64,000 bases of DNA. Origin: Stieleria varia (lineage in GTDB: Bacteria; Planctomycetota; Planctomycetia; Pirellulales; Pirellulaceae). Made by a program: the position numbers and the translations under genes. Under the pieces are notes generated by a model. It did not search any database and had not been told where the DNA came from. It saw nothing but the letters and a program-made list of their open reading frames with translations. Numbering within the stretch: the stretch's first letter is position 1; the number at the start of each line of letters is the position of its first letter. The stretch lies in the NCBI RefSeq assembly GCF_038443385.1, contig NZ_CP151726.1, positions 2,356,001 to 2,420,000 on the forward strand, given 5' to 3'. Positions 10,094 to 41,544 of this stretch are shown in pieces.

Positions 10094-10102
10094 GGGGGTC
10101 TC

Positions 10103-10480
10103 TTAACGAGGAGTTGCTGCAAGCTGAAGGCCTTCGCGGATGACCATCGCCAGCTCAAAAGCGTGGCAGGGTTTGGTCAAGAACTTGAACACGCGGCCGC
10201 GGTTGATCGCGTCGGTCATCACCTCAACATCCGGTCGTCCGGTGAGCATGATGCGGACCGTTTCGGGCGAATTCTCGGCGATCCATGCAATCAGCTCGTT
10301 TCCTGTTTTGCCACTCATTTGTTGATCGGAAACGACCAGCTCAAAGTGATGGCGTTGCAACATGCTGATGGCCATTTCTGCGGAATTGGCGACAAACAAG
10401 TCGTAGGGCTGGTCCCTGAGGACACGTCTGAGACCGTTCAGCAAGTTCACGTCGTCGTCGACCACTAGGATGGAGGTCAT
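10103..10480 (-). CDS. Stand-alone response regulator receiver
   Basis: A 125-residue single receiver domain, MTSILVVDDDVNLLNGLRRV. The acidic pocket (D8-D10), phospho-acceptor D52 (VVSDQQMSG), Thr in IMLTGRP and Lys in FLTKPC are all present, so it should accept phosphate. With no output domain it may work as a phosphorelay intermediate or through protein contacts. It lies 4 bp downstream of the preceding receiver protein and 9 bp upstream of the HD-GYP regulator, within a tightly packed minus-strand operon. The partner kinase is likely one of the two encoded upstream, but specificity cannot be read. Confidence 0.92.
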   Translation of the reverse strand: MTSILVVDDDVNLLNGLRRVLRDQPYDLFVANSAEMAISMLQRHHFELVVSDQQMSGKTGNELIAWIAENSPETVRIMLTGRPDVEVMTDAINRGRVFKFLTKPCHAFELAMVIREGLQLAATPR

Positions 10481-10484
10481 GGGA

Positions 10485-12850: not shown

Positions 12851-12900
12851 GATGGTTGCCTCTTGATTGGATTGCATCTCGGAATTGATCCAACGAATCG

Positions 12901-13084
12901 CTAGCCCGGATACTGCATGGGATGTCTGCCACTACGACGTAAGTGGAAGTATCAAGTTGGTTTATGTTTAAATGAGGACGCTACCGTTTGGTACATTAGC
13001 CGCAACGCGATAGCGTCCGGTTCTCACTCGTATGCTCAGGAACCGGACGCTATCGCGTGCCGGCTGATGCAGCATTCAAGCTAG
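12901..13084. mobile_element. MITE-like palindromic element, copy A
   Basis: A 176-bp element (12905-13080) between two CTAG tetramers. Its left end CCCGGATACTGCATGG resembles the IS1380-like element's terminus CCCGGATATTGCATCC; its right end is a diverged complement. Inside is an 18-bp perfect stem, CGCGATAGCGTCCGGTTC (13006-13023), pairing with 13040-13057. The right CTAG supplies the TAG stop codon of the adjacent histidine kinase gene. Confidence 0.8.
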
Positions 13085-14373
13085 TGGACCCATGATTGGG
13101 TTGATTTTTCTGGAGTCGCTTGAGCCGATTTAGCGATGGTTTGCTTTGTGGATTGTTCCAACGGCAAACGGATCACAAAGGTGGTGCCACGGCCTGGTTG
13201 GCTTTCCACGTTGATCGTTCCGTTGTGTTTCTCGACCACCACCGAATGTGCGATTGCGAGCCCTTGTCCGGTCCCTTTGCCGGCGGCTTTGGTCGTGAAG
13301 AACGGCGTGAATATTCTCGCGATGTTTTCTGGTGGGATACCACAGCCCGTGTCTGAGATTCGGACTTCTGCGAATGGCTTTGCCAGTCGGGTCTCGACCG
13401 TGATCGTTCCTTTCTTCTCTGGAGAGTCACCGAGTGAATCTCCGATGGCGTGAGCCGCGTTGACGATGAGATTCAGCAGGACTTGATTGAACTCCCCGGG
13501 CAAGCAGGGGACTGCCGGCAAGTCTGGGGAGAAGTGGGTCACCATATCGGCGACATATTTCCATTCGTTTCTTGCAACCATGACCGTGTTCTCAATGGAT
13601 TTTGAAAGATCCGTGAGAGTCATTTCGGTTGCCCCCGGGTGCGCAAACTCTTTCATTGCACGAACGATATTGGAGACGCGAGTGACGCCGTCGAGGGTCT
13701 GGTCGATTGCTGCGGGGATTTCATCGACCAAGTATTCTGTATCGGCTGCTTGCATCGCGGCGTGCAATTGTCCGGCTGCGTCGTCGAGATCCTGCAGGCA
13801 ATGCCCTTCCTTTTGCGCCGTGGCAACCAGTTGTTCGCACGTTGCGAGGATTGCGATCAGATCGTTGCACGCTGATTGAACGAAACGTGTATTGTCGCCG
13901 ACGTATTGAATGGGGGTATTGATTTCATGAGCGATGCCGGCTGCTAGTTCACCGATCGATTCGAGTTTTTGTGCCTGGGCCAGTCGTTCTTCTGCTTGCT
14001 TGAGTTTTCGGGCGTGGTCGACTTTGGCGCGTAGTTCTTCCGCTGAGCAGTCTTCGTGCAGGCAGTCTTCGAATCCTGAGGAGAATGCGGAGCGAATCAT
14101 CGGATGATTCAGTCGGTCAACGACACTGACGGTGTAGACACTGCGAGTTCGTATTTTTTGGACGAGCGGGTTCATGTTGTCCTGTGAATCGGCCAATGGA
14201 CCCGGTTGCTCGACGGGGATGCAGCAGAGCACGAGTGCAAAGTGAATCTGATCGACTTGGATGCATGCGGACTCCAGCGACGAAGCCGTTGTGAGGGCAA
14301 CGTCGAGTGGTTGCAGGCGTTGGCTCCAGAGTTCAATCGAGGTGGGATCGTGTTCAATCAGTAGGACATGCAT
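13081..14373 (-). CDS. Histidine kinase with N-terminal pseudo-receiver
   Basis: Sensor kinase of 430 residues starting at ATG 14373 (MHVLLIEHDPTSIELWSQRL), overlapping the upstream kinase gene by 16 bp. Residues 1-115 have a receiver fold, but the phospho-acceptor position reads ALVLCCIPVE, with Cys instead of Asp, and the usual KP is replaced (CLHEDCS); it is probably not phosphorylated. The dimerisation helix carries GELAAGIAHEINTPIQYVGD (His near 147). The ATPase domain is complete: LLNLIVNAAHAIGD, ISDTGCGIP, FTPFFTTK, GTGQGLAIAHSVV. No transmembrane segment, so cytoplasmic. The stop codon is formed by the CTAG border of MITE copy A. Confidence 0.9.
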   Translation of the reverse strand: MHVLLIEHDPTSIELWSQRLQPLDVALTTASSLESACIQVDQIHFALVLCCIPVEQPGPLADSQDNMNPLVQKIRTRSVYTVSVVDRLNHPMIRSAFSSGFEDCLHEDCSAEELRAKVDHARKLKQAEERLAQAQKLESIGELAAGIAHEINTPIQYVGDNTRFVQSACNDLIAILATCEQLVATAQKEGHCLQDLDDAAGQLHAAMQAADTEYLVDEIPAAIDQTLDGVTRVSNIVRAMKEFAHPGATEMTLTDLSKSIENTVMVARNEWKYVADMVTHFSPDLPAVPCLPGEFNQVLLNLIVNAAHAIGDSLGDSPEKKGTITVETRLAKPFAEVRISDTGCGIPPENIARIFTPFFTTKAAGKGTGQGLAIAHSVVVEKHNGTINVESQPGRGTTFVIRLPLEQSTKQTIAKSAQATPEKSTQSWVH

Positions 14374-15737
14374 TCTTGAGACTCGGTTAAGATCGTCGTG
14401 TGAGAGAGGGGCAGCGAAATGAGGATGGTCGTGCATCCAGATTCGGTAGACTCGACAGCGATGGTGCCGTTGTGCTTGTTGACAATCACGTCGTAAGCGA
14501 ACGCCAAGCCTTGCCCGCTACCTTTGCCTACTTCCTTGGTGGTGAAAAAGGGGTCGAAGATTCGCTCTTGAACCTCTGGTTTGATACCGCAACCGTTGTC
14601 GGTGATTCGGATTTGGATGCGGTCCGCTATTTGCTCGGTACCAATCAGGATGGTTCCTTTACCGGGTTCGCAGTGTTCGGAAATCGCGTCAGCGGCGTTT
14701 GCCAGGACGATCAGAATCACCTGCATGAATTGGTCTTCCATGCATGGGGCTTTGTCCAGGTCTGACTGTAATTCGGTGCAGATTTTGGCGACATCTGAAT
14801 ACTGATTGGCGGCAACAGCCAGGGCTTTCTCGATGGACTGATTGATGTCGACTGGTGTGCGACACCCGCTGGACGACTGTGAGAATTCTTTCATTGTTTT
14901 GACGATACCAGCGACGCGTTCGATGCCGTCCAATGATTGGGCGATCGCATCAGGCAACTCTTCACGCAGGAAGGGCAGATCCACGAGTTCGCTTCGGTCA
15001 TTGATTTGTTTGATCAACCCGTCAGTCGTGGCGTTGTTCTTGACAGCGGTGACGAGCTCGTCAAACAAATCCAACAGTTCGCCAACGTCGTTAAAAGCAT
15101 CGTGAAGGAACTGAAGGTTGCTGCTGACAAACTGAATGGGGGTGTTGATTTCGTGTGCGATTCCCGCAGCGAGTTGCCCGATCGACTCCATCTTTCTCGC
15201 TTGCTGCAGGTTTGCTTCCAACAACTTGCGTTTGGAAAGGTCACGGATGAGGGCGGTGTAGGTGACGGGGTTTCCGAGACTGGGGTTTCCGAGATTGGGG
15301 GTATGGTGAGTCCGGCCAACCGAAATCTCACAGGCAAATGGTTCGTGATTGTGTCGCTGAGCGACCAGTTCCACAGGTTCTCTCGTTGCAGAACCGTCTG
15401 GGAAGATACTGGGACAAGCATCTGGGATGAGGAATAGAATGGGTTCGGCGTTCTCCGGTGCCGCGAACAACTCTCGGATATTTGCCCCACATGCCGAATC
15501 GCGGTCAAAGATTCGTTCTGCCGAGCGATTGCATGATTGAATGACTCCCTCACGGTTGTAAGTCACGATGCCTTCAGCGGCAGTGTCAACAATTGCTTTT
15601 GTCCGCTGGGCCAGTTCAAGTAATTGTTGATTGGCCTGGTAGACTTCAGCTGATTTCTTTTCCAACAACGATTCGGCTTCTTTTCTCGCTGCACGTTCGC
15701 GATCGAATCGGCGGCGGAGAAGTTCTAGATCGGACAC
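14358..15737 (-). CDS. PAS-domain histidine kinase, H-NOX-linked
   Basis: Cytoplasmic sensor kinase. I favour GTG 15737 (VSDLELLRRRFDRERAARKE), which overlaps the H-NOX stop by 13 bp; an ATG at 15791 would overlap it by 67 bp. An N-terminal coiled coil (RKEAESLLEKKSAEVYQANQ) leads to a PAS domain near 45-170 (TAAEGIVTYNREGVIQSCN, TALIRDLSKRKLLE). Then come the H-box GQLAAGIAHEINTPIQFVSS (His near 195), N-box VLANAADAISE, ITDNGCGIK, FDPFFTTK and GSGQGLAFAYDVI. H-NOX proteins usually control a kinase encoded beside them, so this is the likely direct partner of the upstream gene. The next kinase gene overlaps it by 16 bp. Confidence 0.92.
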   Translation of the reverse strand: MSDLELLRRRFDRERAARKEAESLLEKKSAEVYQANQQLLELAQRTKAIVDTAAEGIVTYNREGVIQSCNRSAERIFDRDSACGANIRELFAAPENAEPILFLIPDACPSIFPDGSATREPVELVAQRHNHEPFACEISVGRTHHTPNLGNPSLGNPVTYTALIRDLSKRKLLEANLQQARKMESIGQLAAGIAHEINTPIQFVSSNLQFLHDAFNDVGELLDLFDELVTAVKNNATTDGLIKQINDRSELVDLPFLREELPDAIAQSLDGIERVAGIVKTMKEFSQSSSGCRTPVDINQSIEKALAVAANQYSDVAKICTELQSDLDKAPCMEDQFMQVILIVLANAADAISEHCEPGKGTILIGTEQIADRIQIRITDNGCGIKPEVQERIFDPFFTTKEVGKGSGQGLAFAYDVIVNKHNGTIAVESTESGCTTILISLPLSHTTILTESQECMSY

Positions 15738-16309
15738 GGCGTCGCCGTCCCGAGTTCCTTGGGAACTGCAGTCGGAGTCAGTGTAAAGCAAGCGTGTGTA
15801 CCGTCCATCTTTCCTAGCTCCGTGCGACGTACGGCAACGACGTCATCGAAATGGTCCACACAAGCAAGAATCAAGCCTTCGGCGAGGTCCGCGAAAGGAC
15901 GACTGGATTGATAGGTCATCGTCAGTACGCCATCGCTGGTTTTCTCACATTCGAACGAAGGCAGTTCGGCGTCCGGGTAAAGCTTGCGCACTTCGACGTG
16001 GATGTAGGTTTCGATCAGCGGCAGGAAATCTAAGGCAGATTCAACTCCTTGAAAGAATTGTGGGTAGAGCGTATTAAAACGAGAGAATAGGTGTCGTCCA
16101 AAGGCACGCACGAGATCCGGAACAGGCACTCCTGTCTCTTGAGAGAGCGCGATCACCAGGCGAATCAGTTCGGCGTGATCATAGGTTCCCACAGCGGTGT
16201 ATGCGCCGTCGTTCTGTGTGTCGGCTGATTGGATCATGCGATCAGCGATCTCGATTCCGAGATCTGCTTCGACCATCTCGATCAGTTCGGTAAACACAAT
16301 GCCTTTCAT
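15725..16309 (-). CDS. H-NOX (haem NO-binding) sensor protein
   Basis: A stand-alone 194-residue H-NOX domain that binds haem and senses nitric oxide or oxygen. The start MKGIVFTELIEMVEADLGIE is typical. The proximal haem ligand is H104 (LIETYIHVEVRKLYPDAELP) and the YxSxR propionate-binding motif is Y133-S135-R137 (TYQSSRPF); both are intact. There is no second domain, so the signal must pass to a partner, most probably the PAS kinase whose gene overlaps its 3' end. It heads the kinase-receiver run. Whether it binds O2 or only NO depends on distal-pocket residues that I cannot assign. Confidence 0.95.
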   Translation of the reverse strand: MKGIVFTELIEMVEADLGIEIADRMIQSADTQNDGAYTAVGTYDHAELIRLVIALSQETGVPVPDLVRAFGRHLFSRFNTLYPQFFQGVESALDFLPLIETYIHVEVRKLYPDAELPSFECEKTSDGVLTMTYQSSRPFADLAEGLILACVDHFDDVVAVRRTELGKMDGTHACFTLTPTAVPKELGTATPCPI

Positions 16310-21678: not shown

Positions 21679-22530
21679 TCATTGCGAGATTTTTCGCAAT
21701 CGGGTGTCCAACTCAGCGATCGTCGCCGGGCCGATTCCACAACATCCCCCGATGATGGTTGCTCCGGCCGAGATCCATGTCATCGCATGATGGGCGTAGC
21801 GAGTGGTGTCGTGTTGCGATTGGCTGTGCCATCCACAACGTTCTTCGTCCACGCCCGCGTTGGCATAGGCTCCCACGGGCACTTTGAGATCTGCAGAAAC
21901 CAGAGCCTGCAGGAATCGCAGGGTCTGTGATGCGGGAGTGCAATTGACGAGGATCGCGGAAGCACCTCGATCGACTGCGGCGAGGGCGATGTCTACCATT
22001 TCCGATTCGCTCAACAAGTCGGCATGGGGGCCAGCGGTGAGAGACAACCAAGTTTCGCTGCCCGTTCGAATCGCTTCCTCCACCGCGGAAAGTGATTCCG
22101 AGGGATGACAATGTGTTTCACACAAAATCAAGTCGCAACCGAACTGGTGCAAGGCGTTTGCAAACTCGCGTTGCTCGGGGCGTGGGTCGGGAGGTGACAG
22201 ATCCGGACGATAACAATCGCACAGCGGCGGCAGGCTGCCAGCGACTCGATGATCATTGGGCACGGCGTTTCTGGCCAATCCAATCGCTCGGCGGGTCCAT
22301 TGTGACCATTGCTGTCCGACCGTGCGACGTTGCGTTCGAAAGGTATTGGCTGTGTGAATCGTCGCACCGCTGGAAACGTAATCCCGGTGAATCGCGGTGA
22401 TCACATCGGCATGATCTGAGATTGCGGTCGCGCTCCAAGCCAGGGATTGGTCATTGGCGGCGCCACGGGCGATCAGCTCCGTTCCCATGGCTCCATCCAT
22501 TAACAAGACGGTTTGTTGGTGATCAGCCAT
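21679..22530 (-). CDS. Homocysteine S-methyltransferase-family protein
   Basis: Zinc-dependent methyl transfer to homocysteine is the family reaction. Start ATG 22530 (MADHQQTVLLMDGAMGTELI) gives 283 residues; the longer frame upstream runs into the divergent VWA gene and is a shadow. Seen are LLMDGAMGTEL, the single Cys in ILVNCTPASQ and the paired cysteines in IIGGCCGIGP, the three zinc ligands of this family, plus NTFRTQRRT. It resembles short MmuM-like enzymes that use S-methylmethionine or similar donors; the donor cannot be read. It stands 160 bp upstream of kdsA and diverges from the VWA operon with 156 bp between. Confidence 0.9.
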   Translation of the reverse strand: MADHQQTVLLMDGAMGTELIARGAANDQSLAWSATAISDHADVITAIHRDYVSSGATIHTANTFRTQRRTVGQQWSQWTRRAIGLARNAVPNDHRVAGSLPPLCDCYRPDLSPPDPRPEQREFANALHQFGCDLILCETHCHPSESLSAVEEAIRTGSETWLSLTAGPHADLLSESEMVDIALAAVDRGASAILVNCTPASQTLRFLQALVSADLKVPVGAYANAGVDEERCGWHSQSQHDTTRYAHHAMTWISAGATIIGGCCGIGPATIAELDTRLRKISQ

Positions 22531-22686: not shown

Positions 22687-25326
22687 TTGATCTCTCGCGT
22701 TTTTCAGCCAACTTGGATTCTCAGCACCTCGGCAACCCTTTGGATTGCGGTCTTGTGGTGTGCGAACGTTCACGGCGACTGTGACGCGACCCAGCTTTCT
22801 GCCCCGTACACGCTGTTGGTGATCGACAAATCCGGGTCGATGGAGATGACGGCGGACGAGCTGAGGGCGGAGGGATTGGCGATGTTGCCAATCGACGAAG
22901 GACGCAAACCTTGGGAAGCCGCGCGGGTGCGGATCGACGAGCTGCTCAATCGGCTCTCCGACGGTCGGATCGTCCGTGGAGGATTGTTCAGCAGCGAAGT
23001 GCAATGGCTGGACGAAGTCAGTCTTGATTCTGACGACGGCCGTGATCGTTTGAGAGGAATGATCGACGAACTGGCACCGGTCCGAGGCCAGGGCTCCACG
23101 GCGTTGTTCGAAGCGTTGAATGATGCGGTCGCGCAAGCCAGGACGTTGTCCGATGAAGACCCGTCACGAGATATCGCAATCATCGTCTATACCGACGGCG
23201 TGGATTCGACCCAAGACCCGACGGAGAAATCACGCAAGCGGGATCGCGTTCGCACCGAGTTTGCCAAGCTGGTGGACAGCAATCCCAACGTATGGCTTTA
23301 CTACACGCCGATCATTCAAGGCAAAAGCGATGCCATCGAAACGATCATCGATCACTCGCACGCCGTCGGGGTCGGATTCAAGTTTCCGCTGCCATTGGCG
23401 ATCGAGCCCACGGGGTTTGTTTTGCCGTCGGCCAAGCTGAATCCCAAAGCAACGATCAGCACCACCCTGTGTGGTCATCCAGGCGTATGGCAGATCATCA
23501 ATGATGCGACGATGAAGCTGGAGTTTGAACCAGACGAGCTGGATGGTGCCAGTGGTCCGCCCATCCAAATCGATGTGGCGCCGGTGAAAATGAGAGAAGG
23601 CACGATTGACATTCCGCTGGAAGTCCTCAATGCAGAGGTCTTGAAACCGGATCAAGTGTACTCGGGCAAACTCAAGATCACCTATCCGACGCTTGGCGAC
23701 CACGAGATTCGAGCGCCTGCGGAGTTCACCGTTCGATTCCAGGCCGCCGCGCCGCCTGAGATCTACGACATTCGTCCTGTAGATGGATCAACGGTTCCGG
23801 CCGGTCAACCGATCACCTTCATCGCACAAACCTTGCAAGGCGCCTCCATCATCTGGGACTTCGGCGACGGCGATTCCGATTCCAACGCCACGACCCAGCA
23901 CACGTACAGCACCGAGGGCGATCGCAAGGTCACGCTTACCGTGACGGCACCATCAGGTCGCACGGAAAAGACCATTTCGCTGAAAGTGATTGACTTGGCG
24001 GCGAACATCCAGCCGGTCAACGATCGATTGATCGCCGGTCAGCGTCACGTCTTTCGAAGCGTCACGCGTGGACCGATGAAACGTGTGGAGTGGCTCGTCG
24101 ACGGACGCCCGTTTGAGCCGACCAATCCGGCGACCGGCGAGTTGGAATATGCCTTTGATCGAGCCGGAGAGCACAAACTGGAGGTGCTCGGTTTCGCCGA
24201 GCAGATGCAAACGCCCTACAAGAGCCAGCCGCTGAACGTCACCGTGCTGCCAGGCCCCTCCCTGAAAAGTGACACCGATCCGGTGTACGTCGGACAACAG
24301 GTCAAGCTGACGGTGGATTCGCCACCGGGCTGGAAAAGCATCTCATGGGACTTTGACGACGGCACGACGGTGTCCGACGGCGGTGCCGAGCAAACCCACA
24401 CCTTCAAAATTCGCAAGACGCACCGAGTGCGCGCCGTCATCGAATGGACCGACGGGCCACCACAAACGGTTGAGCTGGACGCGGCGATCAAGTCACGAGC
24501 GTTGGTCGCCGGGATCGATCTGGGTGGAGATGCAAAACGGTTTTACTCGGGCGACACCTTGCCACTGAATGAGAAATCGACGGGCGATATCTGGAAACGT
24601 AGTTGGTCGGTGCGGCGCCCCGGGGCGGAAACGTTTGAGCCTCTTGTGGAGGGCGCAACGTCGCTGCCGTTGGACAGCGAGGGTGAGTACGAAATACGGT
24701 CGGACATCGAGTCCTATCCCGACGAAGCCGGGGCGACGCAGACGGCGTCGACCTCTGTCAAAATCTTGGTGTTGCCCAAGCCCAATCGAGCAATCCTGTG
24801 GTCCATCGGCGGACTGCTGGCAGCACTCGTGACGGGTGCGTATTGGGTGTTGGTGCATGGCAACAAGGCGATGTTTTGGCACTTGCGGTATCGCTTGGGA
24901 GGCGACTTTGATGCAGACAATCCTGGGTCGCTGACCAAAGTCAAATGGAATCCGTTTCGCAAACAGTCCGCCATTGAGCTCAAGCGTATGGTGCCCGATG
25001 GGTTTTGGAGGAGCGCTGAGGGCAAGAACGAGAAGCTCTTTCTGTCCTACAAACGGGCCGCCGGTGAGGTGCAAAGCCGGATGCAGTACACCCGCGAAAC
25101 ACAGCAGGGACGCAAGGAAGCGTCTGTGCGATTGAAACAATCCGAAGTGCGGGAAGACAAGTTTTTGCTGATCGAACCAAAATGTAACGACGAAGCGAGC
25201 AAGGTCTACCTGCGTGTGATCAAACGTCATGGCATTTGGTGGCTCGGGATTGTATTGTTCCTCGCCATCCTGGGCTTGAGCCTTTGGTTATTCGTCCTGA
25301 CCTATCAGTGGGTCTACTCCCTGTAA
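22687..25326 (+). CDS. Membrane VWA protein with PKD-type repeats (tubulin-like system)
   Basis: First gene of a four-gene operon; 879 residues from TTG 22687, with GGAG upstream. A signal segment (ILSTSATLWIAVLWCANVHG) precedes a VWA domain whose MIDAS is intact (VIDKSGSM near 45-52, YTDGVDSTQD near 168). About four PKD/Ig-like repeats follow, two with the classic WDFGDG and WDFDDG cores (near 388 and 554). A TM helix lies near 699-722 (ILWSIGGLLAALVTGAYWVL), then a basic ~130-residue cytoplasmic region, then a C-terminal TM (IWWLGIVLFLAILGLSLWLF). The ectodomain therefore faces the periplasm and may bind a ligand through the MIDAS metal. The tubulin-like gene starts 45 bp downstream. Confidence 0.9.
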   Translation: MISRVFQPTWILSTSATLWIAVLWCANVHGDCDATQLSAPYTLLVIDKSGSMEMTADELRAEGLAMLPIDEGRKPWEAARVRIDELLNRLSDGRIVRGGLFSSEVQWLDEVSLDSDDGRDRLRGMIDELAPVRGQGSTALFEALNDAVAQARTLSDEDPSRDIAIIVYTDGVDSTQDPTEKSRKRDRVRTEFAKLVDSNPNVWLYYTPIIQGKSDAIETIIDHSHAVGVGFKFPLPLAIEPTGFVLPSAKLNPKATISTTLCGHPGVWQIINDATMKLEFEPDELDGASGPPIQIDVAPVKMREGTIDIPLEVLNAEVLKPDQVYSGKLKITYPTLGDHEIRAPAEFTVRFQAAAPPEIYDIRPVDGSTVPAGQPITFIAQTLQGASIIWDFGDGDSDSNATTQHTYSTEGDRKVTLTVTAPSGRTEKTISLKVIDLAANIQPVNDRLIAGQRHVFRSVTRGPMKRVEWLVDGRPFEPTNPATGELEYAFDRAGEHKLEVLGFAEQMQTPYKSQPLNVTVLPGPSLKSDTDPVYVGQQVKLTVDSPPGWKSISWDFDDGTTVSDGGAEQTHTFKIRKTHRVRAVIEWTDGPPQTVELDAAIKSRALVAGIDLGGDAKRFYSGDTLPLNEKSTGDIWKRSWSVRRPGAETFEPLVEGATSLPLDSEGEYEIRSDIESYPDEAGATQTASTSVKILVLPKPNRAILWSIGGLLAALVTGAYWVLVHGNKAMFWHLRYRLGGDFDADNPGSLTKVKWNPFRKQSAIELKRMVPDGFWRSAEGKNEKLFLSYKRAAGEVQSRMQYTRETQQGRKEASVRLKQSEVREDKFLLIEPKCNDEASKVYLRVIKRHGIWWLGIVLFLAILGLSLWLFVLTYQWVYSL

Positions 25327-25371
25327 TCCCCTTTTCAATTCAATCCAATCGACTATTTCATAGGATCAACA

Positions 25372-28300
25372 ATGTCATCGAACGTTCATATTTTGACCGG
25401 ATGTGGCGGTACGGGAGTCACGACGCTGCTGCGAACACTGGAGTTGATGGTCGAAGATCCCTACTGGCGTCCAAGACTGCATCGCGACATCTATTTCATC
25501 TTGATCGATACCGATCGCAAGGACATCCAGAATTTCAAACGACGCAAAAGCGAGCTGCTGGCGGGGTTGCCTCATGAGCCGTACTTGTTGGTTCACAACT
25601 TGGCGCAAAACATTTCGCACCTGCAGCAACCCGTGCTCAGTCGTTTTCGCGCCAACGATGAATCGCCCGATGCGATCAAGGGACGCGATCGGCTGCTCAG
25701 GCACTGGTGGAATCGCAGCGCGTCGGAACCGTTTTATGCTCCGTGGGTCGATGACATCGTGCAGGGGGCCGGGCAATGCGGCCCGGTTTCGTATTTCCTC
25801 AGTTGGTTGCGGATGCCCGAGTTTGACGTGGCGCTCAAGGACCTGTTGCGTGAGATCGAGACGCGTCAGGGCGGACTGGGGCCGTGGAAGGTACTCAATT
25901 CGTTGATCGTTTCCGGTTTGGCCGGGGGCACCGGGCGCGGATGCTGGCAGTGGATCGGATTCAAGATCCGTGACTTCTTTGCCCGTCAGGGACACAGCCC
26001 CGCACCGACGGGATTCTTGATCGACCAATCCGCCTTTGAGGACCGCAAACGCAGTCGTCCACGAACGGCGGTTGCGATGACGGTCAACTCGCTGACCGGG
26101 TTGTCGGAACTGTCCGGTTGGATCACCAACCAGCGTGCCGAAAACCACAAGGACGTTTATCGATTCCGCTTGCCCAGTTTTCATTCGCCGGCCAACGAAG
26201 TCTCTGATGTGATCCAACCGGACCCGGAGTCCAACCAGTGGCACGGCGGTCCGATCAACTCGGTCCACTTGATCTTTGGCTCCAACGGTCAAACCCACCT
26301 GGCCTCCGCCGAACAGTACTTTGAAATGGTCGGCACGGGGATCTACTGCGCGATCAGCAACAGCGACATCCAAGCGCAGAACATCAACGATCGTGGCAGC
26401 GCGCACTACTACAGCATGGCCAGTGCGACCGTGGAGGTGAAAGCCAACCAGATCCGCAAGTTCTTTGAGTGGACGGCTCGCGCCGAAGCGATCCACCGAT
26501 TGCGAAATCGCGATGACAGCGTGGCCGATCGGGCTGCCGGGGAGTTCTTGAAGCAAAACAAGCTGCAGTTGGGTTTGCTTTCTGCGACTAGCCGCAGTGC
26601 CAAAGTCGATTCGCCCTTTGAGCCTGACGCACACGGAACTCCTTTGCAGCGTCTGCTGGCGTTCATCGACGGCGCCAGGGCGAAATTCAAGAATGCCCTG
26701 AATGAAGCGTTTGATTCCGACGACACGGATTTGGTTCTCGATGCCGCCGGACAACTCTCTGGGGAACGCGAATCGCTGATCGCCGACGCTCGCCAAAAAC
26801 TCAAAGCCGCATTTGATGAGGTCCGGATCGCTTCGTTTGATGAGGTCGAGCCCGAGATGCAGACGTTCCCGGTCGGCCCGGCATTGGCGGCGGCCAAGCA
26901 GTTGTATGAACGAACCGGGTCGGTCGCCAACATGTTGCAGTTCCTCAAACGTACACGGCAGACGTTTGAGTACGAGCGTGAGTCGCTCAACGCGGTGACC
27001 GAGTCGACTCATCGTGAAATCGATTCGCTGATCAACCAAGTCTCCGGTCGCAGTTACGCGTTGTTCGGCGAACGATTCGACGATGCGGAGGAGACTGAGA
27101 TCAAGAGCGCCTGTGACATCCAGTTTCTCGCCAAGAACGACGAACACATTCGCATGTACCTCAAGTCGATCTATGCCGAATGGATCGGAAAACTCCGTTC
27201 GTTGGAGGAGCGATTGGAGTTGTACCTCGAATCGCTGGGCGCCGCAGAGATTCTGCTGCGGGATCGCTGCGACGCGGTTGTCCCCGGGACCACCGATGCC
27301 CGTTCGCTGCTGTTCAGCAAAGAAGACAAGCCGGAGGATTCGGCGATCGACCCGCTGCATCCTGAGCGATTCTTTCGACGCACCTTGCAACCGGTCATCA
27401 GTGACGCTCGCATCAACGAGCTGGTGGAGCCGATGGTCGCCAAGTCATCCGTGTTGACGTCGCTCGTCTCCGACGCGTTCAAGCCGTTGGACAAAGATGC
27501 GTATGTGCGTCAACAAACCGGTCGCAACCAACGTGATCGTTTGGTCGCCGAAGTCACACAAGTGGTGCGGGTGAACGATGATTTCATGCCACGCGAATTC
27601 GCGTTGCGGAAAGTCGCCTATGACTTGGCCAAAGCATGGTGTAAGCGGCTCGACGGCGCGGTCTCGTCTGATGAACGCAATTACTTGACCGATTTGTGTT
27701 ACGCCACGTTGGGGTTCAAGCCGCAAACGCAAAAATCGCGTGATGAAATCCAGCATGTGTTGCCAACCGAAGAGGACATCATCCACTACTTGGCCGCCGC
27801 GACCGCAAAAAACTGCAAGCCGTACTGGCAAATCCGTAGCGATGCGCTCGTGCATCCGTTCTCGGTCAGCTTGTTCTTTGTCACCGATCTGTCGGAAGAC
27901 GAATCGAAAGCCAAGTTGCAACCTTTGTTGACGGATCGGCCAGTCAACATCGACGTCAACGCGAGGACGAACAACGATCAGCACTCCGGACACAACCCTT
28001 ATGTTTTGTTGGCCTACAGCAACGAAGGAATTGACTCCTTGGAGCCGATTCAGTCGGCCCGCTATCACGAAGAGGAGAACATCGAGACGTTGATCAAACA
28101 GACCGAGAATCCGTCGGGAGACACGATCTTTCAGCGCGGAATCGGTTACACCAGTCCGATCTTTGTCACTGAACCGGCGATCAGTTCCAAACGATGGAAG
28201 CCTTGGGCGAAAGACCTGCGATTCGAGGAAAATCAACGTCAGGGACGCGTCATGGATGCGATCTTGTATTCGCTCTTTCCGGGCAAGAGCGACGACGCCC

Positions 28301-28752
28301 ACGTGGTCGATTTGCTCAGCAAGTTGTCCCATTGTGATTGGCCGATGTCGCTCTTTGAGCCGCAGGATCGCAACTATTTCAAGGTCGCCCGCTTGCCTCG
28401 GATTTGGCAAGGCGGCCGATCCGCCATCGACCAACAGACCAGTCACTTGGACGGTTGGTCCGAAGGTTCCAACGTCGCCTCGTCCGCCGGTATCGCCAAC
28501 GTGCTCAAACGTCTGGAAGAGTCTCCAGCTTGGGTGGGACGCATCCATCAGGAGACCGAGATGTTCCTTGACGATGTGCTGCCATTCCTGGGCTACGGAC
28601 CGACAACGCCCGCACGCAAAGCCGTCTTTGCCGCGTTTCAGGGTTGGCTGCGCAGCGAGATGGATGATGCCGACAAGAACAAGGACGAAGCGGCTCGCGA
28701 AATTTGGAGCACTCTGCTGCAGCGGGCAGCTCAGTGGGGAATCAGCGGTTAG
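25372..28752 (+). CDS. Tubulin/FtsZ-like GTPase-superfamily protein
   Basis: A 1126-residue protein with two tubulin-fold nucleotide signatures: an N-terminal glycine loop, HILTGCGGTGVTTLLRTLEL (residues 6-25), and the tubulin T4 motif as GLAGGTGRGCW at 182-192 (GGGTG[ST]G in canonical members). Phe-, Asp- and Asn-rich stretches to about 330 would complete the GTPase half. The rest is long and helical (RQTFEYERESLNAVTESTHR, ERLELYLESLGAAEILLRDR), without TM segments. It matches the large bacterial Tubulin_2/FtsZl type described by Makarova and Koonin next to VWA and NTPase genes. Start ATG 25372 has AGGAT six bases upstream. Polymerisation and GTP use are inferred; the Arg in the T4 loop is unusual. 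Confidence 0.8.
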   Translation: MSSNVHILTGCGGTGVTTLLRTLELMVEDPYWRPRLHRDIYFILIDTDRKDIQNFKRRKSELLAGLPHEPYLLVHNLAQNISHLQQPVLSRFRANDESPDAIKGRDRLLRHWWNRSASEPFYAPWVDDIVQGAGQCGPVSYFLSWLRMPEFDVALKDLLREIETRQGGLGPWKVLNSLIVSGLAGGTGRGCWQWIGFKIRDFFARQGHSPAPTGFLIDQSAFEDRKRSRPRTAVAMTVNSLTGLSELSGWITNQRAENHKDVYRFRLPSFHSPANEVSDVIQPDPESNQWHGGPINSVHLIFGSNGQTHLASAEQYFEMVGTGIYCAISNSDIQAQNINDRGSAHYYSMASATVEVKANQIRKFFEWTARAEAIHRLRNRDDSVADRAAGEFLKQNKLQLGLLSATSRSAKVDSPFEPDAHGTPLQRLLAFIDGARAKFKNALNEAFDSDDTDLVLDAAGQLSGERESLIADARQKLKAAFDEVRIASFDEVEPEMQTFPVGPALAAAKQLYERTGSVANMLQFLKRTRQTFEYERESLNAVTESTHREIDSLINQVSGRSYALFGERFDDAEETEIKSACDIQFLAKNDEHIRMYLKSIYAEWIGKLRSLEERLELYLESLGAAEILLRDRCDAVVPGTTDARSLLFSKEDKPEDSAIDPLHPERFFRRTLQPVISDARINELVEPMVAKSSVLTSLVSDAFKPLDKDAYVRQQTGRNQRDRLVAEVTQVVRVNDDFMPREFALRKVAYDLAKAWCKRLDGAVSSDERNYLTDLCYATLGFKPQTQKSRDEIQHVLPTEEDIIHYLAAATAKNCKPYWQIRSDALVHPFSVSLFFVTDLSEDESKAKLQPLLTDRPVNIDVNARTNNDQHSGHNPYVLLAYSNEGIDSLEPIQSARYHEEENIETLIKQTENPSGDTIFQRGIGYTSPIFVTEPAISSKRWKPWAKDLRFEENQRQGRVMDAILYSLFPGKSDDAHVVDLLSKLSHCDWPMSLFEPQDRNYFKVARLPRIWQGGRSAIDQQTSHLDGWSEGSNVASSAGIANVLKRLEESPAWVGRIHQETEMFLDDVLPFLGYGPTTPARKAVFAAFQGWLRSEMDDADKNKDEAAREIWSTLLQRAAQWGISG

Positions 28753-28757
28753 CCGAA

Positions 28758-31052
28758 ATGGATCCTTTTTTCATCGTCGGAAAACGCGTCGAACTGACGC
28801 GTTTGCGTGAAGCCAGCCAATTGTCGGGCAGTTGGCTCGCCGATGATTTGCCTCACCCGCGGTACGGCCCCCAAAACAACGCGGGCAACGACATAGGTGA
28901 CAGCGCAGTCAACGGCGAGCGGACCAATGAGCCGATTCGGTTGATCGATCCCGAGGAGTGGGGTGAAGACGATTGGCCACGGTTGTTGACGATGCAGGAG
29001 TCCGTTGTCGCGCACTTGGTGGTGCTTGATGACACCTCCACGTTGAACGATGCAACCGAGCGGGCCAAGCGTCTATTGGACTTGCTCGCTCAGCACATGA
29101 TCGGCCGTGACCGAACAGTTCGGCACGTGTTGCTGTTGCTGCAGACAACCACCAGCAGCACGATGACACAGGCGGACTTGGACGAGATCGTGGAGCTGAC
29201 GCTGCCCGATAATCGTGGCCAGCAGAATGCGGATTCGGTTTGGTCGGCCGTCTACGCGATGACCAGCCGGCTCGAGCCGATCGGGGACACCGGGTTCACT
29301 GCGGCAAAAGTATGGCCGGTGGCCGTTGGACAGTTGTTGATGCACTGGATGCATGAGTTGCCGCCGGTGGTTGCCTCCTCCGGTTCGCACAATCGTTTCT
29401 TTGCGTGGCGGCATTTGACATTCTCGCCGCAGGGCACGCAGTCCCAGGACACGCAGTTACGGGGTTCGGAAGCAATCGACCAAGACGGCAAGCAGTGGGA
29501 ACAGTTGGTGGCGAAGTGTTTTCAGCAGGTGTGGCGAGGCGTGTTCGCGGATCGATCTGGCCAACGTCCTGATTTGCGATTGGCCGATGGTCCGATGGCG
29601 TTGACGCCATACGATTTTAAACCCCAACCGGGCGATCGTCCCTACCAGAAATGGACCGACTACCATTCGCAAGAGTTGCTGGAGCAGCGTTTGACGCCTC
29701 ATCTGTGGCGGAGTGCAACGCAGCAGACCGGTCAACAACTGCGTCAGCAATCCAGTCAGTACGCGCGCGACAGCTTTGATCGGGGACGTCAAGCCACCGA
29801 AGGCTATTGGCGATTGGTCCACACGGATCCCTCCGCGTTGATCTGGCCGCTCGTTGCGGACGGACAGGAGAAAGCAGCTCAGGATTCACTGGCACAATTG
29901 GGTGAAGCCGCTGCCCAATTCGAGGAAAACGTTGTCGATCACCATCGCTGTGGCGAAGAGTTTCAGCGGACTCAGTCGGGTTGGATCGAGTGGCCGATGC
30001 GGATCGTCGCCATCGTCGCGGTGTGCTTTGCAGTCGGGTATGCGGCGTTGTTGACGGTGTACTACTTGCTGGATTCCCTTTGGATGGCAGCAGGATGTTT
30101 GCTCGCTACGGTGATCGGATCGATCGCCGCAGCCTTTCTTAGCAAGGACCTCGAATCCAAAGCTGGTCGACGCGGTCAGTTCACACTGGACGCGGGTTTG
30201 CAAAGTTTGGATCAAGAGGTTCAGCAGCGTTATGTTGCCGCCGCGGATTTGTTTGCCCTGGGGACACAACGCAACACTTTGGTCCAGCGTCGTGCTCAGA
30301 TCGGACACGCCGAGTCCAAACGCAGGGCGTTGCATCACCAGATTCAGCAATGGCAATCCGACATCGACTTGGGCGACAAGCCGGCCAAACGCGGCGCGTC
30401 CCACTTGGACTTGGCAGACGTTTTCGCCCAAGCAACGACGTTGCCCCTGCCGATCGACATGCGACCGGTGGATCAGGAAGCCGCTGTGGCACCGTTCATC
30501 AAGAAAGAAGTCGAGACCTTTCGCGAGCGTGTTTGGCAACCGATATGTCGCGGCACCGATCCCTTTGCACGCGGTGCGATGGATCGCGATCAAATGCGAC
30601 GGCGAATCCAAGCGTATTTTGAACGGTTCGCGGCGCGACTGATTTCGTTTGCCGGGTTGATGGCGATCGCACAGTTACAGCAGTCACGGATCTCGGGCTG
30701 GTACCAGGATTTGACGTCGCACCTGCAATTGGACAGATACCTTTCAGGGGCATCGTGTCATTTCCCCAGCGGGACCACACCACCGTCGCACCTGCGTCCT
30801 GAAATCCAATTGGTGTTTCAATCCGGGTTTGAGAAACTCGGCTGCGACTCTCGCTTGGACGACTTTCGCAAAGACCATGTTTCCGATGGGTCTCATTGGC
30901 TGGGCGATGTGCCCGCGCTGGGCTACATGCACGAGCGAATTCCGGTTCACTTGACGGTCGAGGATGGGCAGCTCAGGGTCAAGTCTTGGGAGGAGGGCAC
31001 TCTCGACGCGCACCTTGGTGGGCAACCATCACCGGGGGGCAGCATCCGATGA
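28758..31052 (+). CDS. Two-TM membrane protein of the tubulin-like system
   Basis: A 764-residue protein I cannot place in a named family. ATG 28758 (MDPFFIVGKRVELTRLREAS) lies 5 bp after the tubulin-like stop; a longer frame start inside that gene is less likely. The N-terminal ~400 residues look soluble (VVAHLVVLDDTSTLNDATER, TVRHVLLLLQTTTSS). Two TM helices lie near 411-460 (MRIVAIVAVCFAVGYAALLT, LWMAAGCLLATVIGSIAAAF). A long charged helical tail with coiled-coil character follows (QRRAQIGHAESKRRALHHQI). Its soluble halves would lie on the same side of the membrane, probably the cytoplasm. Its TGA overlaps the next ATG. A membrane anchor for the tubulin-like protein is a reasonable inference. 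Confidence 0.8.
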   Translation: MDPFFIVGKRVELTRLREASQLSGSWLADDLPHPRYGPQNNAGNDIGDSAVNGERTNEPIRLIDPEEWGEDDWPRLLTMQESVVAHLVVLDDTSTLNDATERAKRLLDLLAQHMIGRDRTVRHVLLLLQTTTSSTMTQADLDEIVELTLPDNRGQQNADSVWSAVYAMTSRLEPIGDTGFTAAKVWPVAVGQLLMHWMHELPPVVASSGSHNRFFAWRHLTFSPQGTQSQDTQLRGSEAIDQDGKQWEQLVAKCFQQVWRGVFADRSGQRPDLRLADGPMALTPYDFKPQPGDRPYQKWTDYHSQELLEQRLTPHLWRSATQQTGQQLRQQSSQYARDSFDRGRQATEGYWRLVHTDPSALIWPLVADGQEKAAQDSLAQLGEAAAQFEENVVDHHRCGEEFQRTQSGWIEWPMRIVAIVAVCFAVGYAALLTVYYLLDSLWMAAGCLLATVIGSIAAAFLSKDLESKAGRRGQFTLDAGLQSLDQEVQQRYVAAADLFALGTQRNTLVQRRAQIGHAESKRRALHHQIQQWQSDIDLGDKPAKRGASHLDLADVFAQATTLPLPIDMRPVDQEAAVAPFIKKEVETFRERVWQPICRGTDPFARGAMDRDQMRRRIQAYFERFAARLISFAGLMAIAQLQQSRISGWYQDLTSHLQLDRYLSGASCHFPSGTTPPSHLRPEIQLVFQSGFEKLGCDSRLDDFRKDHVSDGSHWLGDVPALGYMHERIPVHLTVEDGQLRVKSWEEGTLDAHLGGQPSPGGSIR

Positions 31053-32656
31053 AATCGAATACCTTCCGCAGATCCGTTTTGGGCCGCTGGTCGTCGCATC
31101 CGGTCGATGTGGCTTGGCGAACCCGATGGTTGGCCATCGCGACGTTGCTGCCGCTGGTGATTTTTGCCGTGGTGTTGGCCACTGAAATTCGCAACCCGCG
31201 GCACTGGTTGGGGCTTTGGCAAAACGCAACGGTGTGGGGCAGCTTGGCGTTGATGTTGATCTGCATCACCGCTGCCACTCTGATGACGCTGGGCTTGATG
31301 GCGAGGCTGAATCGATGGAGCAGCGAGTTCAAGAAACAGGCTCCTAGCTTTCTCGGCTGGATCGATCCTTGGATGGCCATTCCGGCGATCGCGTTGGCAC
31401 TGCTGGGGCCGCTTTATTTGGCGGAGATCAACGGGATCGGCGGGTTGGCGGGCTGGGTGTTTCGATTCTTGGCCTTCCTGCCCCTGACATGCTTGATCGC
31501 CCTGACAGGTGCGATGCCTTTGCGAGACGATGCAGAGGAAAAGACAAAGCGACAACCTTGGTTGCTCGGCGTGGCGATCGTGTTTGGCTTGTTCGCGTTG
31601 CTCACGACGGCTCATGATTTGGCGGTCGCTACGGGAGCGACTCAGGTCAGCGGACGCTTGCAAGGACTCTTGCCCGGCTATGCAGGCGTCGCTCCACCGT
31701 TCTCCGGTTTAGTCGGATTCGGTTTGATCGGTTTGGTTGCCTATCTGGCGTGGCGTCTTTGGAAACGTGCGCCGTCGAAAGTGGAAAAGACGATCCGGCG
31801 TTACACGTCGTTGGGTAATTTGCTTGAGATTCGCAAGGACCTGATCTCGGGGGCATTGCAGGAGCAGGTGGACGACGATGCGGATTCGCAGGTGCGCGAA
31901 AGTGGTTCTCAGCGGGTCGAGTTGGCGTTGTTTGGTCACACCGCCAGCGAGCCACAACGGGGATTTCGCCAAGTCGCCGCGGAACGTTTCGAGCGAGCGG
32001 TTTCGGAAATTGTTAGCCCGGTCAGCGGAAACCCTTCCAACGGGCAGGACAACGTCGGCGCGGCGGATGTCTGCGTGATGGGCGATGCAGGATCGGGCAA
32101 GACCACGCTGTTGATCGCCCACGCACTGGCGATGGCGATCGAGTCAGGCACTCGAACGTTGTGGATTGTGCCGACGGACATGACATCGACACAGCATCAT
32201 GAGTTGAGCCGTCGGATCCAGGATCGACTACAAGCGTTGGATTTGGATTGGCTGGTCGCGACGGCAACGCTGTCGGTCCAGTTGGGTGTCGATTGGGCTG
32301 ATGGAAACGCATCGCTGCCGTCGATCCTGCTGGCCAACGAGCGGCAATTGCGAGAAGCGATTTTGGACAACACGGCGATGAATCAACAGCACCGAGGCAG
32401 TCTGCTGGCGTCATTCCCACAGATCATTGTCGACGACGCGCGGAGAGTTTTTGATGCAGACCCGAACGTGTTTTCGACCATTGATCAAGCCGGGCGGCTG
32501 TGTGGTGTCTACGGATATCGGACGCAGATGATCGTCAGTTTGTCGTCAACACCGTCGAGTGAGTTGATTCAAGCAATCGCAACGCAACCGGGAACAGCGG
32601 TGTTTGAGGATGCGGTCAGCTTGCAGCCTATCGATTCAAATCAACCCACGTTGTAG
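31049..32656 (+). CDS. Polytopic membrane P-loop NTPase of the tubulin-like system
   Basis: A 535-residue protein from ATG 31049, in an ATGA overlap with the previous gene. The first ~235 residues hold about six TM helices (LAIATLLPLVIFAVVLA, SLALMLICITAATLMTLGLM, FRFLAFLPLTCLIALTGAMP, GLVGFGLIGLVAYLAWRLWK). The cytoplasmic part has Walker A GDAGSGKTTLL, then WIVPTDMTSTQ, a Walker-B-like QIIVDDARRVFD and a late VSLSSTPSSEL. This order resembles motifs I, Ia, II and III of the first RecA lobe of SF2 helicase-like ATPases; no second lobe follows before the stop. It may be a different P-loop family or a shortened one. Repeats begin about 10 bp downstream. Confidence 0.8.
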   Translation: MKSNTFRRSVLGRWSSHPVDVAWRTRWLAIATLLPLVIFAVVLATEIRNPRHWLGLWQNATVWGSLALMLICITAATLMTLGLMARLNRWSSEFKKQAPSFLGWIDPWMAIPAIALALLGPLYLAEINGIGGLAGWVFRFLAFLPLTCLIALTGAMPLRDDAEEKTKRQPWLLGVAIVFGLFALLTTAHDLAVATGATQVSGRLQGLLPGYAGVAPPFSGLVGFGLIGLVAYLAWRLWKRAPSKVEKTIRRYTSLGNLLEIRKDLISGALQEQVDDDADSQVRESGSQRVELALFGHTASEPQRGFRQVAAERFERAVSEIVSPVSGNPSNGQDNVGAADVCVMGDAGSGKTTLLIAHALAMAIESGTRTLWIVPTDMTSTQHHELSRRIQDRLQALDLDWLVATATLSVQLGVDWADGNASLPSILLANERQLREAILDNTAMNQQHRGSLLASFPQIIVDDARRVFDADPNVFSTIDQAGRLCGVYGYRTQMIVSLSSTPSSELIQAIATQPGTAVFEDAVSLQPIDSNQPTL

Positions 32657-39804: not shown

Positions 39805-41544
39805 CTAGCCCGGATATTGCATCCGAAAATTTGTTTCCCCCTATAGCGCAAGAGCCTTAGTCCTGGTATGCATTGGAGTTACAACACTTCACACATCCCA
39901 AGCCCAAGGCTCTCGGCAATGACAAAGCGTAATCGAAAACGAGCTGCACTGAAACGCCTCCGTCGCCAAGCTGTCGAGTTTGATTTTGATGGCGGAACGC
40001 TCACGTCCGACGCCGGATTGCTACTGCTTCGCGAAGTCGATCAACGACTCGGCCTGATCCGCCGAGTCGACGCTTGTATTGCCGATCCACGCGATCCTAT
40101 CTACACCGCACATCCGCAGGCCGAGATCCTGACCAGTCGTATCTTTGGAATTGCGGCAGGCTACGAGGACGGCAACGATCACGCCCACTTGCGGCATGAT
40201 GCAGCCTTTCAAGTCGCTGCCGGACGCACACCTGCACAGAATGACTATGACAGCGACGAACACGTTCCTTTGGCCAGTCCGTCAACGCATTCACGTTTCG
40301 AAAATCGTGTCGATCGCAAAGCGATGCTGGCTATCCACGAAGAAATCGTAAACACCTTTCTGGACAGCTACGAGAAACCGCCCGAAGAAATCACGTTGGA
40401 CTATGATGCCACAGATGATCCGACGCACGGCAATCAAGACAAAAACTACTTCAATGGATTCTACGACGGCCACTGTTTTCTGCCGCTGTACGTGTTCTGT
40501 GGCTATCAGTTGCTTGTCGCCTACTTACGTCCCAGCAGTTTTGGCGCAGCCCATCACGCTCGCGCGGTGACCAAACTGCTGGTTCAAAAGATTCGTTCGC
40601 GATGGCCGGAGACGAAAATCATTTTACGTGGCGATGGCGGATATTCTGATGAAAGACTCATGCGTTGGTGCGATAAAAACGACGTCTACTATGTCTTCGG
40701 ATTGCCCAAGAACAACGTCTTGATCCGCAATATTGCCTGCGAAATGACCCGTGCTCGACTTGAGCATTTGAAATTTAAATCCACGCGAACGCTTTTCAAG
40801 TGGTTCCGTTATCGCACTCAGGAAACATGGGACCGTCATCGCTGGGTTCTCGGCAAGGCGGAGCACGGCGACAAGGGAGCCAACCCGCGTTTCGTCGTGA
40901 CAAACCTGCCCAGTGCCCAAGGGATCGTCGAGCCGACTTATCATCGCCCTCGCGTGGACGGCAAACAGGTTCGACAAATCCTCGATCCTGGAACGATCTG
41001 CAGTGTTGCTTGGAACCCGAAGGATTTCTATCGAGAACGTTATTGTCAGCGTTGTGAAATGGAGAATCGGATCAAGGAACAACAGATGTGTTTGTTTGCC
41101 GATCGAACCAGCTGCACAGACTTCATGGCCAATCAGTTTCGTTTGATTCTGTCGTCGTTGGCGTATGTGTTGGTCGACGGAATCCGCCGGTTGGCACTTC
41201 AGGGCACTACACATGCTCGGATGCGTGTGGATACGATCCGCTTGCGTCTGTTCAAGATTGCCGCGCGAGTGCGCGTGACTTGTCGGCGAGTGATTTTTCA
41301 CCTTCCGACTCACTGCCCTAGCGCGAGTCTCTTTAACGAAGTCATGGCGCGTCTTTGCCGAAGCGACTAAGGGCGGCAACCCTCGAGGAAAACGCAACCA
41401 CGAAGCGAATCATTCGCTTGGGGGAGGGGGGGCCTTCTGCGCGGCGCTGCGAAAGCCCCCATCAAAATCAAATCATTTCCCAAAAGCGGACGTATCGAAC
41501 TCGCAACCCCGCGTCAATAACCGATGGATGCAATATCCGGGCTA
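39805..41544 (+). mobile_element. IS1380-like insertion sequence with CTAG target duplication
   Basis: Element 39809-41540 (1732 bp) with 16-bp perfect inverted ends CCCGGATATTGCATCC, flanked on both sides by CTAG. The empty site is preserved as an inverted copy at about 41830-41887: joining the left flank (GTGAGCCGATGGCG), one CTAG and the right flank (CCACGGGC) gives nearly that sequence. The element holds one intact transposase gene. Its ends resemble those of MITE copies A-D. Confidence 0.9.
39919..41370 (+). CDS. IS1380-family DDE transposase
   Basis: A 483-residue transposase starting at ATG 39919 (MTKRNRKRAALKRLRRQAVE); an in-frame ATG 51 bp upstream is possible. Family features: FDFDGGTLTSDAGLLLLREV at the N-terminus, ITLDYDATDDPTHGNQDKNY (first catalytic Asp), KIILRGDGGYSDERLMRWCD (second Asp), and the late QRCEMENRIKEQQMCLFADR (Glu). 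The reading frame is undamaged, so the element could still be active and could mobilise the MITE copies that share its termini. Codon use and G+C look like those of the host. Confidence 0.93.
   Translation: MTKRNRKRAALKRLRRQAVEFDFDGGTLTSDAGLLLLREVDQRLGLIRRVDACIADPRDPIYTAHPQAEILTSRIFGIAAGYEDGNDHAHLRHDAAFQVAAGRTPAQNDYDSDEHVPLASPSTHSRFENRVDRKAMLAIHEEIVNTFLDSYEKPPEEITLDYDATDDPTHGNQDKNYFNGFYDGHCFLPLYVFCGYQLLVAYLRPSSFGAAHHARAVTKLLVQKIRSRWPETKIILRGDGGYSDERLMRWCDKNDVYYVFGLPKNNVLIRNIACEMTRARLEHLKFKSTRTLFKWFRYRTQETWDRHRWVLGKAEHGDKGANPRFVVTNLPSAQGIVEPTYHRPRVDGKQVRQILDPGTICSVAWNPKDFYRERYCQRCEMENRIKEQQMCLFADRTSCTDFMANQFRLILSSLAYVLVDGIRRLALQGTTHARMRVDTIRLRLFKIAARVRVTCRRVIFHLPTHCPSASLFNEVMARLCRSD

Follow-up and report, generated by a model that had tools for sequence, protein, structure and literature searches.

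A four-gene unit encoding a tubulin-like protein, a VWA protein and two further membrane proteins in Stieleria varia and two other planctomycetes

Introduction

In 2010, Makarova and Koonin predicted a system that brings together an FtsZ-like protein, FtsZl1, and a VWA protein (PMC2875224). According to the available text of that paper, the VWA protein is encoded in the majority of FtsZl1 operons, while a diverged P-loop GTPase with a TxKD motif is frequent, not universal, as is an OmpA-like protein or a protein kinase; fusion of a kinase to the Tubulin_2 domain in Planctomycetes was already noted there. The same text carries a reviewer's objection, namely that a periplasmic VWA protein cannot reach a cytosolic FtsZ-like protein, and a proposal by the reviewer Jekely of a role in transport or signalling (PMC2875224).

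The one experimental phenotype that we saw for Tubulin_2 in the open literature (subscription journals and preprints lay outside the scope) concerns Synechocystis Sll0445, which contains this domain. Interruption mutants of sll0445, sll0446 and sll0447 are described, in the available part of that work, as impaired in phototaxis and altered in photosystem II fluorescence, with contacts to pilus proteins (PMC9880817). An earlier sequence-only reading of the DNA analysed here had described a tubulin-like/VWA/membrane NTPase system with no demonstrated function. This statement is valid for the four-gene set, of which we found no account in the open literature (with the same scope), but not for the family, given the Sll0445 phenotype. 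Many members of the phylum had been said to divide without canonical FtsZ, and an FtsZ-less budding planctomycete has indeed been described in the accessible part of one report (PMC6952346).

Results

Gene layout

The unit occupies positions 22687-32656 of the forward strand of the window, that is, of the whole 64,000-nucleotide stretch analysed, and consists of the four co-oriented genes VWA, TUB, MID and NTP (Table 1). VWA starts with TTG and has GGAG upstream; it is followed by TUB after 45 bp and by MID after a further gap of 5 bp, while MID and NTP overlap by 4 bp (ATGA). Coordinates, strand, lengths and spacing all agreed with the sequence-only reading. Judging from gene spacing, the four genes appear to form one transcription unit; a sigma-70 promoter scan at the unit gave no site.

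Table 1. Location of the four genes, of one flanking gene and of the other Tubulin_2 loci of the host genome
Feature	Location	Strand	Description
VWA	22687..25326	+	Secreted VWA (MIDAS) + PKD protein, 879 aa, two predicted C-terminal TMs
TUB	25372..28752	+	Tubulin_2 / FtsZl1, 1126 aa; tubulin-like domain residues 7-366
MID	28758..31052	+	764 aa, no known family; predicted two-TM hairpin 416-461
NTP	31049..32656	+	Six predicted TMs, then putative P-loop ATPase domain (Walker A GDAGSGKT, Walker B IIVDD)
S-methyltransferase gene	21679-22530	-	Upstream flank of unit
VWA-TUB pair (L006)	G000:C1:3960658		Host genome
Kinase fusion with upstream P-loop gene (L007)	G000:C1:9591931		Host genome

The flanking genes are ordinary. 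Upstream, besides the S-methyltransferase gene, lies a gene that we take from its sequence to be kdsA, and downstream are genes for an M48 peptidase and a beta-ketoacyl synthase. The host genome is a single contig of 9.72 Mb. A recent mobile origin of the unit was considered and left unsupported, since GC is even along the unit, its codon-position GC is about that of five neighbouring genes, and no tRNA gene lies within the 64-kb window; searches of plasmids and of viral contigs gave no match to the unit. Elsewhere in the window we noted a DDE_Tnp_1_4 transposase (494 bits; 39868-41370, +), about 7 kb 3' of the unit, and a row of response regulators with HD/HDOD domains together with a HATPase_c protein (8906-14436, -).

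Recurrence of the four genes

Two further planctomycetes carry all four genes with their order unchanged, a new observation. One is the Pirellulaceae metagenome-assembled genome KatS3mg110 (G181; loci L008 and L080 are one locus, their sequences being verified as identical), in which VWA (1070 aa), TUB (1121 aa), MID (722 aa) and NTP (259 aa) lie on one strand. The other, G606, belongs to another class of the phylum (locus L107; 1217, 1115, 753 and 1663 aa, respectively), and of its three gene junctions one is a gap of 13 bp while the others are overlaps, of 4 bp and 11 bp. Tight spacing is common to all three carriers, whose proteins are only about 20-35% identical.

Orthology was scored as z, the local-alignment score relative to 200 shuffles. 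Between the window and KatS3mg110, z was 76.6 for VWA, 179 for TUB, 6.1 for MID and 7.6 for NTP; between the window and G606, 45.5, 141, 16.0 and 27.3; and between KatS3mg110 and G606, 54.7, 174.4, 4.6 and 2.9. In the comparison of the window with KatS3mg110, MID and NTP were each top among 418 proteins, NTP narrowly (112 vs 109), and the assignment of these two KatS3mg110 genes, weakly tied by sequence, rests partly on position. The three TUBs form one clade (III, support 100), which adjoins four clade II TUBs (7 rows, support 99), in a quick tree that used 20 of the 41 other TUBs, left out L071 and gave base make-up warnings for the window, L080 and L107.

Because the same set and order recur in two distant relatives, the arrangement is more than chance and the four gene products probably work together. 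The conservation in related genomes on which the sequence-only reading had staked its claim is therefore found, and its designation of the unit as a planctomycete version is apt, the nearest named relative being the Pirellulaceae genome KatS3mg110. In that genome a 234-aa gene without a Pfam family (L080:5717-6421, +), whose product has hydrophobic stretches as judged by eye, lies about 300 bp 5' of VWA on the same strand.

The tubulin-like protein

The tubulin-like domain of TUB matched Pfam Tubulin_2 (PF13809) with 69.5 bits (cut-off 27, E 4e-19) and holds both glycine-rich loops that had first suggested a tubulin relative, GCGGTGVTT (T1) and GLAGGTGRGCW (T4). At the level of sequence, the assignment to Tubulin_2/FtsZl1 is firm. 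The profile was matched at E <= 1e-5 by 26 of 26 TUBs scanned, and the G606 TUB scored 56.9 bits. G12, G185 and G186 are invariant across 26 TUB sequences; across 23 planctomycete Tubulin_2 domains the same holds for these three, for G134 and for N239, with T1, T4 and this T6-like Asn as a whole invariant or nearly so. By analogy, we take N239 to be the T6 Asn that contacts the base.

When a profile of the 23 domains was compared with solved structures, the top match was M. jannaschii FtsZ, at an E value (0.0055) that is weak alone, with an alignment spanning the T1 and T4 loops; among the best 60 of 63 matches, 51 were FtsZ or tubulin and 9 were RanGAP1 or subtilisin. The catalytic T7 loop was not identified in TUB. 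An AlphaFold model obtained from a two-sequence input, considered for the tubulin fold and for the central coiled coil and helical C-terminal domain expected of FtsZl1, was mostly helical, yet its mean pLDDT was 36, with values below 50 at 969 of 1126 residues.

TUB gave no NCBIfam match and did not reach the cut-off of canonical FtsZ, TIGR00065. No protein of the host genome was over this cut-off either, as opposed to 13 of 14 control genomes, and the FtsZ-less context assumed by the sequence-only reading fits the host.

The membrane proteins

The VWA protein has a hydrophobic N-terminus (residues 10-28), a MIDAS motif DxSxS at 47 and predicted TMs at 703-721 and 853-871. Its description as a VWA+PKD protein with two TMs stood as regards PKD (Pfam, 66 bits), MIDAS and TMs, while the Pfam VWA match, 22.1 bits, fell just under the cut-off of 23.8. 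By these sequence features it is a membrane-crossing protein with a complete MIDAS and a VWA/PKD part of extracytoplasmic type. The G606 counterpart matched no VWA family up to E 1, though the region aligns with that of the window protein.

In clades II and III alike, the VWA proteins start with a hydrophobic or signal-like stretch, carry a MIDAS as well as PKD repeats, and have a C-terminal TM. Between the two clades, the VWA and PKD parts match in profile-profile comparison (99.7%, hhalign); the inner tails do not align. The topology of six such proteins fits an extracytoplasmic VWA/PKD part, a TM and some 100-130 aa inside. Those of clade III have an extra second TM, and the loop between the two (131 aa in the window, 129 and 156 aa in the others) is predicted to lie on the cytosolic side.

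MID matched no Pfam family over cut-off. Its two predicted TMs (416-434 and 443-461), already recognized by the sequence-only reading, form a hairpin in what is, from its sequence, a mostly soluble protein. Among 117 relatives, MID was found in two, namely those that carry TUB. A relationship to the two-TM gene of L075 was tried and rejected, as there was no similarity (hhalign 0.3%).

The six predicted TM stretches of NTP and its Walker A motif are as originally reported. Against Pfam DEAD, the window NTP scored 31.2 bits (cut-off 26) and that of KatS3mg110 24.3, below it; G606 was not listed. The nSTAND_NTPase5 profile ranked best or second-best in all three genomes, with scores (33.1 bits for the window, 21.2 for KatS3mg110, 26.9 for G606) that were all below the cut-off of 34. 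From these matches, NTP looks like a P-loop ATPase of helicase or STAND type. An SF2 helicase with both RecA domains was rejected, the DEAD N-domain alone being matched; a helicase C domain was absent from the Pfam matches of the window NTP, and none is reported for the longer G606 NTP. In the window and KatS3mg110 proteins, the sequence after the P-loop contains neither TxKD nor NKxD. Hence, of the Makarova-Koonin system invoked by the sequence-only reading, the coupling of FtsZl1 to VWA holds, but the distinct GTPase does not, the profiles of NTP being of ATPase type. The six-TM part is common to the window and G606 NTPs (28.9% identity over 263 columns, E 2.7e-13) and absent from KatS3mg110. 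An AlphaFold model of the NTP domain (two-sequence input) had a mean pLDDT of 42.

The 1663-aa NTP of G606 (L107:4101-9092, -) has about 1000 extra residues. Directly 3' of its gene is one for a ClpX-like AAA+ protein (L107:2375-4105, -; AAA_2 70.2 bits; NCBIfam ClpX 281 bits, below the cut-off of 359).

Rarity and kinds of Tubulin_2 locus

With TUB as a single query, carriers were found in 1 of 149 phylum genomes, 2 of 117 relatives and 0 of 13 genus mates; a two-row TUB profile found two carriers among 397 genomes of the class and two among 392 of the phylum. As these samples overlap, there are three carriers in all. A search of genome contigs with one protein as query yielded nothing, and one with the two-row alignment found KatS3mg110 alone; the latter used two exact peptide patterns, can miss carriers and did miss G606. 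Tubulin_2 of any kind was present in 71 of the 117 relatives and 12 of the 13 genus mates.

In all 10 genus mates examined (of 13), the presumed kdsA sits next to its neighbour gene, and the 18 remaining query genes are all missing from the flanks covered around this pair. No clean junction of an empty site was seen in the genus mates, though the region differs; the HMT gene lies elsewhere.

The host genome has three different Tubulin_2 systems (Table 1), and the genus mates have at most one of these three. We surveyed 44 loci, chosen by us from about 76 Tubulin_2 matches (one, L071, was miscalled from a wrong-strand ORF). The upstream gene had a GxPGNGK[ST] motif in 20, encoded a VWA protein in 6 and was of another kind in 18. 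Four upstream genes of the GxPGNGK class were scanned with Pfam and gave weak AAA matches, whereas the one gene scanned in the last class encodes an FHA-EAL protein (L042). A protein kinase was matched in 19 of 26 TUBs, which are not named individually, their number being that of the members outside the VWA-linked clades; the TUBs of the window, G606 and L006 gave no such match.

Two clade II VWA-TUB pairs have further genes on their 3' side. At L068 (12379-14904, +) the product has an FGE-sulfatase domain (91.3 bits) and also matches NACHT weakly, and at L075 there is (12407-16069, +) a TM protein of no family, followed by a TraG/VirD4-like coupling protein (195.8 bits).

Discussion

Our best explanation is that the unit specifies a membrane-anchored machine of the tubulin superfamily, which would connect the external face of the inner membrane with a scaffold in the cytosol that depends on GTP, and would have its own ATPase. 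We hold this view tentatively, with a probability of about 45%. The VWA part might bind a metal-dependent ligand in the envelope, and its inner loop, together with MID, might recruit TUB to the membrane, where TUB would bind GTP and assemble. At the expense of ATP, NTP would then load the TUB assembly, remodel it or take it away. In the cell, this could serve to shape the membrane locally, or to position a structure of the envelope or of adhesion; membrane remodelling by the four-gene system, as put forward in the sequence-only reading, we keep as a hypothesis. The trans-membrane arm of the VWA protein offers an answer to the 2010 objection that VWA and tubulin sides cannot meet.

We counted in favour of this machine the Tubulin_2 match, the invariance of T1, T4 and N239, the gene order in three genomes, the tight spacing, the co-occurrence of MID and TUB and the topology of the VWA protein. 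The Sll0445 phenotype with its pilus-protein contacts, as far as the available text describes them, was added to these (PMC9880817). Counted against it were the low pLDDT values (36, 42), the sub-threshold VWA match, the KatS3mg110 NTP without a six-TM part, the weak z of MID (6.1), the absence from 13 genus mates and the failure to identify a T7 loop.

A somewhat unlikely alternative is a trans-envelope device for signalling, secretion or adhesion control, in which TUB would be a nucleotide switch rather than a filament, VWA/PKD would sense a ligand, MID relay its state and NTP act on a secreted or surface protein. The transport or signalling role raised by Jekely in the available 2010 text (PMC2875224) and the motility phenotype of the Sll0445 mutant, as partly described (PMC9880817), are in line with it. 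So are the protein kinases usually joined to clade I Tubulin_2 and the FHA-EAL partner at L042, but none of the window's four genes has a signalling domain. A weak transglutaminase-like stretch in the G606 NTP (Pfam 18.1 bits vs cut-off 23; top match among solved structures 4fgo, 'Periplasmic protein', E 0.017) also counts for this alternative, yet this part is missing from the window.

A system of biological conflict, or defence, with a STAND-like ATPase switch and a membrane-protein effector, appears improbable to us. Patchy distribution is what one might expect of it, the nSTAND_NTPase5 ranking of NTP points the same way, and so does the weak NACHT match in the FGE protein beside the clade II pair at L068; however, every nSTAND match lies below cut-off. 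PADLOC returned weak, chance-level P-loop matches for NTP (best E 0.0025) and none for VWA, TUB and MID, no Pfam defence family was found among 15 window neighbours scanned, and neither the plasmid and viral-contig searches nor gene composition, which is like that of the neighbours, speaks for it.

That TUB substitutes for FtsZ in cell division would suit a host without canonical ftsZ but is very improbable, because all 13 genus mates lack TUB and must divide without it. For the same reason the set is not a core cell-shape system; patchiness within the genus favours an accessory task and disfavours division.

In its boldest form, the membrane-anchored machine would be a rare, conserved trans-envelope tubulin skeleton of FtsZ-less bacteria, a tubulin-superfamily GTPase with a physical connection across the membrane to a MIDAS/PKD receptor outside, powered by an ATPase of helicase descent that sits in the membrane; this we regard as unlikely. 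Irrespective of the actual function, a constant set of four genes, two of them of unknown family, provides a small, testable group of partners, and it offers a connection through the membrane from the VWA side to the tubulin side. A natural comparison is given by three Tubulin_2 systems in one genome versus at most one per genus mate.

Comparison with known systems

Like the FtsZl1-VWA operons of 2010, as described in the available text, the unit has a Tubulin_2 domain with a long C-terminal part, an adjoining MIDAS VWA gene and membrane-associated partners. Unlike them, it lacks a gene for a GTPase with TxKD and, by Pfam, one for an OmpA-like protein or a kinase; it has instead MID and the six-TM helicase/STAND-like ATPase, either of which may equal one of the 2010 families A1-A2/B1-B9 (PMC2875224). 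Sll0445 resembles TUB as a Tubulin_2 protein with membrane-linked partners, but its neighbours are Sll0446 and Sll0447, and the accessible part of that work describes no VWA, MID or NTP (PMC9880817).

The clade I kinase-Tubulin_2 fusions of planctomycetes, of which the host has one (L007), share the Tubulin_2 domain with the unit but differ in their N-terminal kinase and in an upstream gene of AAA type (at 20 of 44 loci) or of another kind, which they have in place of VWA, MID and NTP. As for the clade II pairs (L006 in the host, L046, L068 and L075), MID and NTP were not found beside them, but a VWA/PKD gene lies directly upstream of TUB, as in the unit, and both the VWA parts, by the match given above, and the tubulin domains (95.6%) are homologous to those of the window.
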